In this document: positions 20,883 to 42,448 of the stretch, one piece after another
How the letters are laid out: each line of letters begins with the position of its first letter
Numbering within the stretch: position 1 is the stretch's first letter
DNA from: Clostridia bacterium
GTDB lineage: Bacteria; Bacillota; Clostridia; Oscillospirales; Acutalibacteraceae
Assembly (NCBI GenBank): GCA_017512465.1
Contig: JAFWGH010000079.1
Coordinates: 1 to 49,683, forward strand
DNA length: 49,683 nt
Reading direction: 5' to 3'
Position numbers and translations under genes: made by a program
The notes under the pieces: model-generated
Told to the model about the DNA's origin: nothing
Databases searched by the model: none
Seen by the model: the letters and a program-made list of their open reading frames with translations, nothing else

Positions 20883-21536
20883 TTAATCAATAATCTTTTT
20901 TTGCAGCTTTAGCGGCATGATACACTGTGCATCAAACCGAGGCGCCAAGCTCTCTTTAACACTTGTAAATAACAGCGGCAAGCCCGTGAGTGCACACAGT
21001 TTGTTTACTTCTTCCTCGGTAGAAAGGATATCCTGCGCGGTTGTCTCCTCGCCCAAATTGGAATTGTTGACAATCGCCGTAAACGCTATGCCTCCCGCGC
21101 CTTCAATCTCGCGCATCACCTCGATTGCTTCTTCGGCAGTGCGCGTGAGCGGGCGGAAAAAGTTGGCGACAAAAACCATTTCGTAGTTATTCTCTTCCAA
21201 AATGTACGGGCGGTATCTGCCGAGCGCCAAAGCACCTCTTTCATCGCCGCCAATATCCATTATAGCATAAAAAGATGTATTTTGCACTAATGAATATATT
21301 TCCTGCGGCAAGGCAGGCAAATCCACATTGGAATTGGCAAATGCGGGCGATATCAATTCCACGCCGGCGCGCGCCAAATCCTCAGCGGAATCCTTGGTTC
21401 TGAAATAGGGATTGACCACATCCAAATCCGCAATTTTCACATCTTTCCCCTGCGCGGCAAGCTGCAGAGCAAGATTGACTGCAATATTCGTTTTTCCGCT
21501 GCCGTAATGACCGGCAAATAAATATACTCTTTTCAT
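20883..21536 (-). CDS. P-loop ATPase of the MinD/CobQ-like group
   Basis: The 217-residue protein has a Walker A motif of the GHYGSGKTNIAVNLA form at residues 8-22 and a switch-like DLDVVNPYFRT segment near 38, then MDIGGDERG. This resembles the MinD/ParA/CobQ class rather than a kinase. The role is not established; genes of this type can accompany ferredoxin-dependent oxidoreductases, perhaps in cofactor or cluster handling, which is inference. The ribosome binding site upstream is weak (TGGATT), perhaps because the four-helix-bundle cassette was inserted just in front of it. Confidence 0.8.
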   Translation of the reverse strand: MKRVYLFAGHYGSGKTNIAVNLALQLAAQGKDVKIADLDVVNPYFRTKDSAEDLARAGVELISPAFANSNVDLPALPQEIYSLVQNTSFYAIMDIGGDERGALALGRYRPYILEENNYEMVFVANFFRPLTRTAEEAIEVMREIEGAGGIAFTAIVNNSNLGEETTAQDILSTEEEVNKLCALTGLPLLFTSVKESLAPRFDAQCIMPLKLQKKIID

Positions 21537-21554
21537 AATCCATTTTGGATTGTA

Positions 21555-21584
21555 GCAGTCAGCAACCGGCAGTCAGCAGTCAGC
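21555..21584 (+). repeat. Heptamer array, downstream end of cassette A
   Basis: Four heptamers, CAGTCAG CAACCGG CAGTCAG CAGTCAG, with flanking G and C. It is 80% complementary (24 of 30) to the array at 22069-22098, so the two form an imperfect inverted repeat around the four-helix-bundle gene. Confidence 0.75.
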
Positions 21585-21611
21585 CACTGACGAAAGAACC
21601 ACTGCAATCCA

Positions 21612-21995
21612 CTAATCTTCTTTCAAACCAATTCCTTCGTTTTTTATGCGCGCTATCAATGCATTAAGCAACTTGCCTATTTCTTTACACAAATCAAAAA
21701 GTGCTTGCAACTGCTCCTCATTATAATACTTTAAACGAACAGCAAGCAACATCTGTGTTTCCAATTCGGCAAGAGAACCGGAAGCAATGTAAAGAAATCT
21801 GATAAATTCTTTATCAGAACATCTGCCATAGCCTTCAGCAATATTCGAAGGTACAGAAAGCGCACAACGGCGCATTTGACTAGACAACCCGAACAATTCT
21901 TCCTTTGGCAATAATTCAGTGTAATCATACACATTTTGCGCCAAATCTATTGACTTTTGCCAAACAATTAAATCTTTGTAACTCTTGTATCTCAT
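21612..21995 (-). CDS. Four-helix-bundle protein (S23/IVS-Avd family), cassette A
   Basis: The 127-residue protein matches the family first described from 23S rRNA intervening sequences and related to the Avd protein of diversity-generating retroelements. Signature parts are YKDLIVWQKSIDLAQNVY, LSSQMRRCALSVPSNIAEGY, KEFIRFLYIASGSLAELETQ and a final helix. Members form basic pentameric barrels; cellular function outside retroelements is unknown. The gene lies between the acyl-CoA synthetase and P-loop ATPase genes of one operon, in the same orientation, and is bounded by inverted heptamer arrays. A second copy lies at 42013-42372. AGGA precedes the start. Confidence 0.9.
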   Translation of the reverse strand: MRYKSYKDLIVWQKSIDLAQNVYDYTELLPKEELFGLSSQMRRCALSVPSNIAEGYGRCSDKEFIRFLYIASGSLAELETQMLLAVRLKYYNEEQLQALFDLCKEIGKLLNALIARIKNEGIGLKED

Positions 21996-22020
21996 AATAA
22001 TCCTGTTTGAGTGTGATCAA

Positions 22021-22062
22021 AGCTTGCCCCGCAAGCTACAATCGGGTATGGGCAGCGCCCAT
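22021..22062 (-). other. Two perfect hairpins ahead of the cassette A gene
   Basis: AGCTTGC-CCC-GCAAGCT (22021-22037) and ATGGGC-AGC-GCCCAT (22048-22062) lie between the heptamer array and the four-helix-bundle start. They would form in the operon mRNA and might slow or process it. Confidence 0.55.
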
Positions 22063-22068
22063 CCATTC

Positions 22069-22098
22069 GCTGACCGCCGACTGCTGAATGCCGACTGC
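22069..22098 (-). repeat. Heptamer array, upstream end of cassette A
   Basis: Heptamers GCTGACC GCCGACT GCTGAAT GCCGACT plus GC, starting five bases after the acyl-CoA synthetase stop codon. It is inverted relative to 21555-21584. Confidence 0.75.
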
Positions 22099-22103
22099 TA
22101 TTT

Positions 22104-24371
22104 TTACAGCTTGTTGCGCTGGATTTTACCGCTGATGGATTTGGGCAACTCGTCTCTAAAGACCACGATACGCGGGTATTTATAAGGCGCCGTGTTCTTC
22201 TTGACATAGTTTTGAATTTCTTTTTTGAGCTCTTCCGTGCCTTCTTTGCCCTTCACAAGCACAATGCTCGCTTTGACTACCTGCCCTCTGACTTCATCGG
22301 GCTCGGCGGAAACGCCGCACTCGAGCACATAGGGGAGCTCCATAATCACGCTCTCGATTTCAAACGGACCGATACGATAGCCGGAGGACTTAATAACATC
22401 GTCTGTCCTGCCGACATACCAGAAGTAGCCGTCTTCATCCTTCCAAGCGGTATCACGCGTATGGTACATTCCATCGTGCCAAATCTTGGCAGTGTTTTCT
22501 TCATCACGGTAATAGCCTTTAAACAGACCGCAGGGCACTTCATCATCCACACGAATGACAATTTCACCCACTTCACCGGTTTCAACACTATTGCCCTCTT
22601 CATCCACGATATCCACATTGTACTGCGGGTTAGGTTTGCCCATGGAGCCGACCTTGGTGCGCGAGCCGATTAAGTTGCCGATGGTCAAGGTGGTTTCGGT
22701 CTGACCGAAGCCTTCCATAATCTGCAAGCCGGTTGCCTTTTCAAACTGGCGGAACACTTCGGGATTGAGTGCTTCACCCGCGGTAGTCATATGGTGAATG
22801 GAGCTTAAATCGTATTTCGATAAATCTTCTTTAATAAACAGCCTCAACATTGTGGGCGGCGCGCAGAAGGTTGTGATGTTGTACTTTTGGAACATCGGCA
22901 TAATATCATCTGCATGGAAGCGGTTGAAATCATACACAAATACCGCACCTTCACACAGCCACTGTCCGTAGAGCTTGCCCCAAAGGGATTTGCCCCAACC
23001 GGTATCGGAAATGGTGAAGTGCAAGCCGTCTCGCTCACAGCAGTGCCAATACTTGGCGGTTACAAAATGCCCCAACGCATATTTATAGGAATGCTCTGCC
23101 ATCTTCGGGTTTCCGGTGGTACCGGAAGTGAAGAGTAAGAACATGGTATCATCGCCCGCCGGCGTATCGCTCTTGCGCGGGAAACGGGTGGAGAAGAGTG
23201 CATACTCTTGATTATAGTTATTCCAGCCTTCCCTGTCATCGCCGACAATGATTTTGGTTTCGAGCGAGGGAGATTCCAGTGCTGCGGTTTCGACTGCTTC
23301 GGGAATACCGTCATCCTGCGTGGCAATAATTGCCTTCACGCTTGCCGCATTGAAGCGGTAGACTAAATCGTGTGCCTTCAACTGGTTCGTGGCGGGAATT
23401 GCCACAGCACCGATTTTGTGCAGCGCGAGCATGGTAAACCAGAATTGATAGTGGCGCTTAAGAATAAGCATGACCTTATCGCCTTTTTTGATACCCAGCT
23501 GTGTCAGATAATTGGCGCAGCGGTTGGATTCCTGCTTCATCTGCTTAAAGGTGAAGCGGCGCTCTTTTTTATCGTTATCCACATAAATCATAGCAAGCTT
23601 ATCCGGCTCTTTGTCGGCAAGCGCATCCACCAAATCATAGGCAAAATTGAAGCGGTGGGTATTTTTAAAGCGAATGTTCAGCAGTTTTCCCTTTTCGTTT
23701 TCTTCGGTTTCAATAAATTCTTCGCATAACAGCTTCTCACTCGGGCGCGTGGAAACAATGCTTTCTCTGATTTTTTCTTCTTTTGTCTCCTTGCCGGGCA
23801 AGACCACTGCCAAGAAGGTGCAATCCTTCCCGTCTACAGCAATCATACCGTGAGGGGTGGAGGAATTATAATAAATAGAATCGCCTTCGTGTAACACTTC
23901 GCAGTTGGAGCCGACCTGCACTTTGAGCGAACCGCTGATAATGAGGTCAAATTCCTGCCCCGAGTGCTTAGTCAGGTGAATGGGTTTGTTCTGCAATTCG
24001 GGCGAATACTCATATGTTACCCAATAAGGCTCGGCGATTTTGTGCTTAAATTCATGTGCTAAGTTTTTAATGGTGATACCGTCTTCCTTCGTGGTTTCTT
24101 TGCCTGCGCCGGCTCTGGTGACCGTATACGATGACAGGTGCGCACCCTGCCCCTCCAAGAGCTCGGTAATTTCAATGCCGAATGCCAAAGCGCACTTGTG
24201 AATAAAGGTAAACGGTAAATCCGCTACTCCGCTTTCATAGGCGCGGTACTGCTCTTCGCTGACTTCGGTCTTCTTAGCCATTTTGGCTGCCGACCAACCC
24301 ATGATTTCTCGCGTGCCTTTGATTCTTGCCGCGACTTCACTGAGTTGGGTTAATGCTGCATTTTCGTTCAT
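22104..24371 (-). CDS. HTH-cupin-acyl-CoA synthetase (AMP-forming) fusion
   Basis: Three parts are fused in 755 residues. Residues about 10-65 are an XRE-type helix-turn-helix (MGWSAAKMAKKTEVSEEQYR). Residues about 100-200 are a cupin (HSGQEFDLIISGSLKVQVG through YYNSSTPHG). From about 215 on there is an ANL-superfamily acyl-CoA ligase with LLFTSGTTGNPK (phosphate loop, near 415), GFGQTETT, YHTRDTAWKDEDGY, GYRIGPFEIES and the catalytic Lys in SGKIQRNKL at the C-terminus. The ligase would activate a carboxylic acid with ATP and CoA. The HTH-cupin half resembles small regulators that sense an organic acid. It is the first gene behind the T-box and probably supplies the acyl-CoA used by the downstream oxidoreductase. 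Confidence 0.9.
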   Translation of the reverse strand: MNENAALTQLSEVAARIKGTREIMGWSAAKMAKKTEVSEEQYRAYESGVADLPFTFIHKCALAFGIEITELLEGQGAHLSSYTVTRAGAGKETTKEDGITIKNLAHEFKHKIAEPYWVTYEYSPELQNKPIHLTKHSGQEFDLIISGSLKVQVGSNCEVLHEGDSIYYNSSTPHGMIAVDGKDCTFLAVVLPGKETKEEKIRESIVSTRPSEKLLCEEFIETEENEKGKLLNIRFKNTHRFNFAYDLVDALADKEPDKLAMIYVDNDKKERRFTFKQMKQESNRCANYLTQLGIKKGDKVMLILKRHYQFWFTMLALHKIGAVAIPATNQLKAHDLVYRFNAASVKAIIATQDDGIPEAVETAALESPSLETKIIVGDDREGWNNYNQEYALFSTRFPRKSDTPAGDDTMFLLFTSGTTGNPKMAEHSYKYALGHFVTAKYWHCCERDGLHFTISDTGWGKSLWGKLYGQWLCEGAVFVYDFNRFHADDIMPMFQKYNITTFCAPPTMLRLFIKEDLSKYDLSSIHHMTTAGEALNPEVFRQFEKATGLQIMEGFGQTETTLTIGNLIGSRTKVGSMGKPNPQYNVDIVDEEGNSVETGEVGEIVIRVDDEVPCGLFKGYYRDEENTAKIWHDGMYHTRDTAWKDEDGYFWYVGRTDDVIKSSGYRIGPFEIESVIMELPYVLECGVSAEPDEVRGQVVKASIVLVKGKEGTEELKKEIQNYVKKNTAPYKYPRIVVFRDELPKSISGKIQRNKL

Positions 24372-24554: not shown

Positions 24555-24841
24555 ATAAAAAACTCGTCTCAAAGCATTCTTTGAGACGAGTTGCGAAATC
24601 AAATTTCAGCACCCGCGGTACCACTCAAATTGCACAAATGTGCCACTCAGGCTCTATCAAGCCGTAGGCCTTAACGCTGCCATACGGGAAACGCCTACTA
24701 ATACAAAAGTATGTTCGGATTTCCGGCTCGGAAGGGATTGGAGCTTGAACACCGCACTTACCGGGCTTGCACCGCCCCCGGCTCGCTTTGAAGATAAGCA
24801 TTCGTCCGTCTTCGTCATCGCTTTTGTGATAATAAATATCG
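24555..24841 (-). promoter_or_regulatory. T-box leader, specifier most likely UUC (Phe)
   Basis: The minus-strand leader has the conserved T-box GAGTGGTACCGCGGGTGC (24609-24626), a Stem I distal part with AAAGCGAG followed by the CCGGG...GGTGCAAG...CCCGG hairpin (24761-24781), and a downstream terminator. Uncharged tRNA pairing would stabilise the antiterminator and switch the operon on. On the 3' side of the specifier loop GTGTTCAAGC offers UUC followed by A (24747-24749). The variable base in UGGU pairs with discriminator A, as in tRNA-Phe and not tRNA-Ser. The UCA alternative is less consistent. The kink-turn part is poorly conserved, so the assignment is tentative; the T-box itself is certain. 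Confidence 0.9.
24561..24592 (-). terminator. T-box-controlled Rho-independent terminator
   Basis: AACTCGTCTCAAAG pairs with TTTGAGACGAGTT around a short loop, followed on the minus strand by T6 and ATTTT. Confidence 0.88.
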
Positions 24842-27853: not shown

Positions 27854-27890
27854 AAATGCAATAAATTTTTAAACGGATGCTGTGACATCT

Positions 27891-27976
27891 GCAAGGTTTA
27901 TGGTATAAATTGTATAAAATATAATAATATACTATACTATTTCCGACCTTGCGCTTGCGTGAAGGTCTGTTTTTTT
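27891..27976 (+). promoter_or_regulatory. Attenuator-like switch in the pyr leader
   Basis: A terminator hairpin GACCTT/AAGGTC (27945-27967) followed by T7 ends nine bases before the pyrC start. Upstream, GCAAGGT (27891-27897) is exactly complementary to ACCTTGC (27946-27952), so it can pair with the 5' arm of the terminator and prevent it forming. The spacer between is a run of TATA-like repeats that could allow polymerase pausing. I found no PyrR-binding consensus (UCCAGAGAGG-type loop), so the signal sensed is unclear. Confidence 0.65.
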
Positions 27977-37888: not shown

Positions 37889-37899
37889 GCTTTGCTGTT

Positions 37900-37925
37900 T
37901 TCAGTGTTCAGTTTTCAGTGTTTAG
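37900..37925 (+). repeat. Orphan heptamer array of the cassette type
   Basis: TTCAGTG TTCAGTT TTCAGTG TTTAG: the same unit as cassette B but without a four-helix-bundle gene, lying 12 bases after the pyr terminator. Confidence 0.7.
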
Positions 37926-37931
37926 TATCTA

Positions 37932-37973: not shown

Positions 37974-38053
37974 CTATGAATAAGTAAAGATGAAAACATT
38001 GAACTAACTATCAAATTAAGCGAAGCGGAACGGGTGCGGGTGTCCCGCCCTTT

Positions 38054-38083
38054 AATTCCGAATTTCGCATTCCGAATTCCGAA
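38054..38083 (-). repeat. Second orphan heptamer array with a different unit
   Basis: ATTCCGA ATTTCGC ATTCCGA ATTCCGA, again four units of seven bases, ending at the stop of the sufB-like gene. Same architecture as the cassette ends but an unrelated unit. Confidence 0.6.
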
Positions 38084-41901: not shown

Positions 41902-41925
41902 AGTTTATTCACTCCGTTCGTAGTT

Positions 41926-41951
41926 TTCAGTGTTCAGTGTTCAGTTTTCAG
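41926..41951 (+). repeat. Heptamer array, downstream end of cassette B
   Basis: TTCAGTG TTCAGTG TTCAGTT TTCAG, an exact 26-base inverted match of 42418-42443. Confidence 0.85.
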
Positions 41952-42012
41952 TAAAAATCCGAACTCACATGAACATACTGAATTCTTTTTTTGTCTTCAT
42001 TATCTATATGTG

Positions 42013-42372
42013 CTATTCTTTCATTTTTTTAACAAGTGTATAAATCACTCGGGATATTTCATTACTTAAATCCATTGCTTTTTGAACTTGTTGTTCTGTA
42101 AAATAGCCGAGCATACACCCAATCAATAATTGTGTTTCTAACTCCGCTCTGGAACCATTTGCAATCGATAAAAAATTGATGAATTCTTTTTTGGTTTTTC
42201 GTGATTCTCCCTCCGCTATGTTAGAGGGAATTGAAATCACAGAGCGCCTGAGTTGATCCGCTAAAGAAAACTTCTCTTCATTTGGTAAATACTCTATCAA
42301 TTCATACACTTCTTTAACCAAATCCATCGATTTATTCCACACTACTAAATCTTTATAATTAGAATATCCCAT
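42013..42372 (-). CDS. Four-helix-bundle protein (S23/IVS-Avd family), cassette B
   Basis: The 119-residue protein has the same signatures as the cassette A copy: YKDLVVWNKSMDLVKEVY, LADQLRRSVISIPSNIAEGE, KEFINFLSIANGSRAELETQ. The two are clearly homologous but well diverged, so cassette A and B are not a recent duplication. I place the start at the ATG after TGGAG; longer readings run into the heptamer array. It sits between tyrA and aroF, oriented with the operon, and its upstream array starts five bases after the tyrA stop. Confidence 0.9.
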   Translation of the reverse strand: MGYSNYKDLVVWNKSMDLVKEVYELIEYLPNEEKFSLADQLRRSVISIPSNIAEGESRKTKKEFINFLSIANGSRAELETQLLIGCMLGYFTEQQVQKAMDLSNEISRVIYTLVKKMKE

Positions 42373-42417
42373 GATTTTCTCCATTCCAATCAGAGTAACG
42401 ACAATGTCCACTGAACG

Positions 42418-42443
42418 CTGAAAACTGAACACTGAACACTGAA
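42418..42443 (-). repeat. Heptamer array, upstream end of cassette B
   Basis: Reads CTGAAAACTGAACACTGAAC plus ACTGAA on the plus strand, the exact complement of the array at 41926-41951. Confidence 0.85.
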
Positions 42444-42448
42444 GAAAA

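Follow-up and report, generated by a model that had tools for sequence, protein, structure and literature searches.

S23-family genes between inverted arrays of about five phased units: a putative operon-dwelling element of Clostridia and other bacteria

The closest described relatives of the locus analyzed here are the intervening sequences (IVS) of 23S rRNA that carry an S23 open reading frame, as in Coxiella burnetii. Like that locus, they hold an S23-family gene, measure about 430-550 bp, end in inverted complementary sequences and are thought to be selfish or mobile. IVS with S23 are excised by RNase III and their function is unclear; the S23/IVP proteins have "no known function" (PMC4990558). 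A second resemblance is to orphan heptamer arrays (Xanthomonas GGGAATC, Nostoc GGGGA(C/T)T, Beggiatoaceae TAACTGA, the Geobacter heptanucleotides and the cyanobacterial STRR), which are intergenic 7-base tandems, often of 2-6 copies. The arrays of Xanthomonas and Nostoc include 70-75 convergent pairs and have no general link to mobile elements, with paired inverted copies noted in Xanthomonas (PMC4692102); others occur in Beggiatoaceae and further bacteria (PMC4679880), and the Geobacter sites contain four or five repeats (PMC2700814). S23 is not mentioned in the texts of these three papers, and no report linking heptamer arrays to S23 was found in the literature searched, which omits most subscription journals. 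REPIN/RAYT systems and MITEs are likewise small dispersed elements with inverted ends and with gene-bearing and gene-less copies. Avd/bAvd of the diversity-generating retroelements has the four-helix-bundle fold, works with structured RNA and needs a reverse transcriptase. Finally, the trp RNA-binding attenuation protein (TRAP) is an 11-subunit ring that reads 11 spaced triplets separated by 2-3 base spacers, a binding mode that is proven.

The window, i.e., the whole 49,683-nucleotide stretch of Clostridia DNA that was analyzed, contains on its minus strand a gene for a 127-residue S23/IVP four-helix bundle protein (21612-21995; PF05635, E=7e-42; TIGR02436), termed cassette A together with its flanking arrays. 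As an earlier sequence-only reading had described, the gene lies between inverted 7-base arrays and between two host genes of the same strand, those of an acyl-CoA synthetase (AMP-binding ligase; 22104-24371) on the 5' side and of a P-loop ATPase of the CbiA/ParA type (20883-21536) on the 3' side. A T-box leader of the host operon lies 5' of the synthetase gene (24579-24827, minus strand) and scores 75 bits with RF00230 (E=4e-15), against an Rfam cut-off of 93. A sub-threshold PyrR binding site is found at 27862-27976 on the plus strand (RF00515, 44 bits vs 54). An Rfam scan of the window at the gathering threshold revealed no known RNA family in cassette A.

The upstream array of cassette A (22068-22099, minus strand) has the unit AGCAGTC and is decayed with respect to the intact ortholog L039; it reads, in gene sense, AGCAGTC GGCATTC AGCAGTC GGCGGTC AGCG. 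The unit of the downstream array (21554-21585, plus strand) is the reverse complement of the upstream unit. The two arrays match as inverted repeats at 25 of 32 positions (24 of 30 in the sequence-only reading), and the lag-7 score gives p=0.02 for the upstream and p<1/2000 for the downstream array, with p<1/500 for the inverted match in dinucleotide shuffles. Cassette A is a decayed copy of the element, and the orthologous cassette in the relative genome G006 has intact arrays with 21 of 24 lag-7 matches on either side. Between the upstream array and the S23 start, a short hairpin followed by ACCCGATT can be read at 22040-22063 (minus strand), variants of which are present in further cassettes of the same genome (L002, L004). 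Cassette A thus possesses the intergenic tandem 7-mers of the orphan heptamer arrays; unlike those, its arrays bound an S23 gene. It differs from the IVS in location, since it sits between protein genes of an operon and outside 23S rRNA.

The protein of cassette A scores well above the curated cut-offs of its families (142 bits vs 33.8 for PF05635; 138 vs 24 for TIGR02436). Its AlphaFold model displays four helices with a pLDDT of 90.6, and the best PDB matches of the model are 2gsc (rmsd 1.0; about 43% identical) and 2rld, each of which holds five chains. The S23 protein of Xanthomonas is a homopentamer that forms a toroid (PMC4990558). A pentameric ring, carried over from these solved relatives, is anticipated for the cassette A protein. 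The genome of the window contains seven S23 genes and one fragment. S23 of this type was not found in phages; among plasmids there are 32 S23 records, mostly cyanobacterial, all with less than 60% identity.

A second cassette, B, occupies positions 41922-42443 and encodes an S23 protein of 119 residues (42013-42372, minus strand; PF05635, E=8e-39) that is homologous to the one of cassette A yet diverged from it, as noted before, with 52% identity. Its upstream array (42411-42443, minus strand) has five in-register AGs at a period of 7, and its downstream array (41922-41952) has five in-register AGs on the plus strand. In contrast with the decayed cassette A, the lag-7 and inversion signals of cassette B are strong on every count, and the inverted match of its arrays is 26 of 30; terminal inversion around the S23 frame, as in the IVS, is therefore present in both cassettes. 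The upstream array of cassette B begins 5 bases past a stop codon, the distance that had been claimed for both cassettes, whereas in cassette A the stop lies 4 bases ahead of the array. An extended palindrome spans the stop codon at cassette B. The 75 bases ahead of its S23 start (42373-42447) are 95-97% identical to those of G006 and G004, while third codon positions of the flanking genes are only 55-60% identical between those species, which suggests that the array and leader of cassette B are under constraint.

The window also contains a gene-less insert. An array with a unit of the cassette B type and four in-register AGs (37897-37926, plus strand) has no S23 gene, and an opposite-facing array with a different unit, AATTCCG (38054-38083, minus strand), constitutes the second end. 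A GC-rich motif (GGGCGGGACACCCGCACCCGAT and variants) is located just inside the arrays of several cassettes and gene-less inserts, at 38030-38053 of the window and in L002, L004 and L196.

The arrangement was further analyzed in two samples of S23 loci. Sample 1 comprised 94 loci from 80 related genomes, with flanks of 250 bases and 168 control windows, and sample 2 comprised 80 loci from many phyla with S23s of the KDLxVWQKS type; loci are shared among the tests, and related loci are not independent. In sample 1, a 24-base window with at least 20 lag-7 matches was present in the flanks of 36 of 94 S23 loci and in 0 of 168 controls, and at no other lag from 4 to 13 did a window of the S23 flanks reach the threshold. 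Inverted ends were found at 30 of the 94 loci of sample 1, against 1 in mismatched pairs, and at 43 of the 80 loci of sample 2, again against 1; a looser threshold raises the latter two counts to 54 and 2. Both the lag-7 autocorrelation and the inversion between flanks that the sequence-only reading expected of S23 loci are thus found beyond the window. Among the 25 loci of sample 1 that have both arrays, 19 show upstream and downstream units that are reverse complements of each other (at least 6 of 7 bases), compared with 5.5% for mismatched loci. Readable periods in sample 2 are 7, 8 or 9, and wherever both arrays are strong, with at least 4 AGs each, they have one period in common (44 of 44 cassettes: 32 with period 7, 11 with 8 and 1 with 9). 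Many S23 loci of non-KDL type have no arrays.

A scan of all dinucleotides revealed that the arrays of KDLxVWQKS-type loci are best described as an AG each 7, 8 or 9 bases. Among array-bearing loci, the AG core is found in 34 of 44 of the KDL type and in 8 of 31 others (p=1e-5), and the AA core in 8 of 44 and 27 of 31, respectively (p=3e-9). The number of in-register AGs peaks at five, in 30 of 89 upstream and 33 of 89 downstream arrays, or 32 and 41 of 89 if one internal miss is allowed. Counts of 3, 4 and 6 account for 7 to 14 arrays each, the peak at five being two to five times the values at 4 and 6. Shuffled flanks mostly yield 2, and five or more AGs were present in 5 of about 320 control windows. 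Arrays of the non-KDL types, which have AA-rich cores, peak at five as well. Exactly five plus five AGs are found in 19 of the 44 two-array cassettes; many arrays depart from this number, having 3, 4 or at least 6 units, and dozens in some cases. Period and core track the protein tree with 5 changes each (60 scored tips for the period), a link to the protein that sets these arrays apart from the orphan heptamers as described, and the similarity of units increases with that of the proteins, also below 60% identity.

Across relatives and multi-phylum loci, period, copy number and inversion are kept while most bases of the unit vary, as the sequence-only reading had proposed. Its corollary, that the array sequence is not conserved, holds for most unit bases and not for the dinucleotide core, which is AG in the KDLxVWQKS type and AA-rich elsewhere. 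Nor are the arrays free of sequence, since those within a cassette use the same unit, with a non-AG identity of 67% vs 33% between cassettes.

The peak of five AGs equals the subunit number taken from the S23 relatives. Together with the five chains of the solved structures, it leads us to infer that the ring would read the array with one S23 subunit per array unit. The proposal resembles TRAP, where a ring protein also reads phased short motifs equal in number to its subunits and leaves the spacer bases free. S23 is, however, a four-helix bundle and does not have the TRAP fold, and TRAP has 11 subunits and no flanking inverted pair.

Inverted arrays could alternatively pair in the operon transcript and place the S23 gene in a loop to be excised by RNase III, in the manner of an IVS, so that structure would be selected and not recognition by a protein. 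In the 23S rRNA intervening sequences, the terminal inverted repeats on either side of the S23 gene pair into a 28-bp stem that RNase III cleaves (PMC4990558), the inverted arrays of the window cassettes are about 78-87% complementary, and the cassettes are co-directional with the operon. Selected pairing, or inverted copying, would nevertheless predict the best match at the same register. A comparison of the non-AG positions of upstream unit i with those of downstream unit i in 22 cassettes revealed no register-matched complementarity, the match being 0.674 in register and 0.672 out of register (p=0.85). This result speaks against selection for an RNA stem, and the candidate was rejected. Units are common within a cassette and are not mirrored: the non-AG match is 66.7% between units inside one array and 32.6% between cassettes. 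In orthologous cassettes of Flavobacteriaceae the 8-base unit retains AG and, for the most part, CA, and its other positions drift independently on each side. Moreover, lone arrays without a same-unit partner are common, and an AG core and a five-copy rule would be superfluous for a stem. We consider the stem unlikely. Whereas an IVS ends in a unique stem, the cassettes end in phased multi-unit arrays, show no register-specific pairing and have many gene-less copies. The data favor a phased core that is read by a protein in both arrays, each being a putative site. The earlier suggestion of a mechanism acting on structure or periodicity is therefore retained for periodicity and abandoned for structure.

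The cassettes are oriented with their hosts. A co-directional open frame ends at most 120 bases away from 51 of 64 upstream arrays, and the flanking genes are co-directional in ratios of 64:7 and 58:6. The distance from the stop codon to the upstream array is -6 to +11 in 30 of these 51 and extends to about 100 in the rest; it clusters near zero and is not fixed, contrary to what the two window cassettes had led the sequence-only reading to expect. The strong co-direction with host operons favors a role of the RNA or a plain need for host transcription, whereas the like constraint on both ends, which lie on opposite strands, favors DNA, or both, as the bound form. The bound form would be RNA or single-stranded DNA.

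The gap that holds cassette A (site A) is variably occupied among relatives. It is empty in G003, where both host genes overlap (TAATG), and filled by cassette A in G000 and G006. In G005 it contains another S23 cassette, with CAGCCAA-type units; of the 26 residues available for comparison, 14 are identical. In G001, G002 and G004 the gap is taken up by repeat elements of other kinds that lack S23. The site of cassette B (site B) behaves in a similar way. With such varied occupants, the gaps at sites A and B are recurrent landing places. A comparison by eye of site A with the empty site in G003 showed no clear target duplication, the divergence being too high. The cassette has no linked transposase, nuclease or reverse transcriptase, so that no enzyme can be named for its putative movement. 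Third positions of S23 are 91% identical between G000 and G006, those of the ATPase gene 58%, and those of the ligase end also raised, at 81%; a recent movement of cassette A between these genomes was discarded as an interpretation, since a recombination tract explains the identities equally.

At site A of G004, G002 and G001 (L070, L073 and L071), the 3' end of the host gene, including its stop codon, is followed by its own inverted copy, which gives a hairpin at the insertion point (for example, ACAAACTGTAAGC-TGCAG-GCTTACAGTTTGT). In Bacteroidota, an S23 cassette is located right before an apparent sdhB, likely in the sdhA-sdhB gap, in several families (L204, L228, L262, L211, L235, L216), and the units and periods of these cassettes differ at this one place. 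Some cassettes are long-lived at one site, namely before sdhB and at another Bacteroidota site, and this retention points to use by the host no less than to selfish spread.

Arrays without an S23 gene are dispersed in the same genomes. A loose four-unit CAGT pattern has 58 matches in the genome of the window, several of them overlapping inside one array; most of the matches that were read have no adjoining S23 gene, and they frequently consist of one array with about 5 units. A strict five-unit CAGT-type pattern (AGTNNNC) occurs 6 to 35 times per genome in six members of the genus with a KDL S23, counting G002 and G005, where a contig end truncates the gene, and 0 times in the member G003, where no KDL S23 was found. 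Outside the genus it was found only in G017, G042 and G073 (2-3 matches), of which G073 has a KDL S23. Period-8 arrays exceed a reversed-pattern control in genomes with period-8 cassettes (251/29, 240/17, 47/10 and 44/19) and are not enriched in period-7 genomes (4/16, 3/42 and 7/40), the exceptions being the period-8 genome G092, which does not fit (67/104), and the period-7 genome G094, with a mild excess (25/11). Generic AG patterns at periods 7 and 9 were set aside as genome-wide evidence, because the reversed-pattern control is equally high in many genomes; we ascribe this to the frequency of GA itself in heptads and to the 3-base rhythm of coding sequence. A Chitinophagaceae genome (G093, that of L256; e.g., C8:18233-18317) contains many gene-less mini elements, in which two period-8 AG arrays face each other across about 17 bases. 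In a different type of array, CAGTTG, AGTTATATT or CATCACT alternates with unrelated hairpins, sometimes as an inverted pair (L071, which is site A of G001; L005, 5' of an S23 gene; L104).

The many gene-less copies, some of them closely spaced inverted pairs, and the three Y1 transposase genes of the genome would also fit REP- or MITE-like elements moved by a transposase such as RAYT, a Y1 transposase, with S23 as a passenger. Yet the repeats on either side of two RAYT-like genes (L189, L190) are of the GGGGACGGTTCT type and belong to a distinct family, and no array pair bounds the third Y1 gene; mobilization of the arrays by RAYT was rejected because the transposases sit within other repeats. 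Array core and period track the S23 lineage, and the cassettes differ from REPIN/RAYT and MITE elements in having no linked transposase and in ending in multi-unit phased arrays, which makes this explanation improbable. It is more improbable still that S23 plays an Avd-like part in a retro-mobile element, beside the reverse transcriptase of a diversity-generating retroelement. The cassette A protein matches the Avd model NF033474 weakly (E=6e-9, 36 bits), below the cut-off of 80, and shares its fold with the Avd structures 4dwl, 8ub7 and 8ub8. The reverse transcriptase that Avd needs was, however, not found in the genome of the window, which is 96% complete and has no RVT_1 match despite two cassettes and many arrays, and a partner of this kind was rejected on that ground. 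We know of no phased arrays for Avd. That slippage produced ordinary simple-sequence repeats whose link to S23 is incidental is scarcely credible. Many bacteria do have an excess of heptamer repeats, and descriptions of these name no gene that goes with them (PMC4692102, PMC4679880, PMC2700814), but slippage does not account for 36 of 94 S23 loci vs 0 of 168 controls, the inversion, the equal period in 44 of 44 cassettes, the preferred copy number and the lineage-specific core.

On balance we lean, with modest confidence, towards the reading in which S23 pentamers recognize the five-unit arrays as marks of the two ends of a mobile cassette that dwells in operons, and of its gene-less copies; we infer binding, the choice between RNA and DNA, and mobility. 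The cassette would be a small, widespread element in which an S23-type gene is enclosed by two arrays that face inward and have about five phased units apiece. Either array would be a binding site of the S23 ring, a pentameric toroid of four-helix bundles by analogy with the solved relatives, and each of the five subunits would hold a single core dinucleotide, which is AG for the KDLxVWQKS subfamily. The protein lineage would set the 7-, 8- or 9-base spacing, much as the TRAP ring is matched to 11 triplets. With an inverted site at either end, two rings may mark or join the ends of the cassette. Lying right behind a stop codon and in the direction of the host gene, the cassette would have its S23 made from the host transcript, and gene-less arrays would spread in the same genomes, recognized in trans. 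The element would spread with the help of host enzymes.

More tentatively, and somewhat short of what we would call probable, these loci may represent a new class of element defined by an oligomer-to-array rule, in which pentameric S23 rings read five phased dinucleotides at the ends of their own cassette and at many gene-less copies, in many phyla. Two long-standing puzzles would meet here, namely the role of the S23/IVP proteins (PMC4990558) and the abundance of intergenic heptamer arrays (PMC4692102, PMC4679880). If the reading is true, the S23 family gains a function and much of the unexplained heptamer-repeat content of bacteria is explained; should the elements prove mobile, few mobile elements that dwell in operons would be smaller or more widespread.
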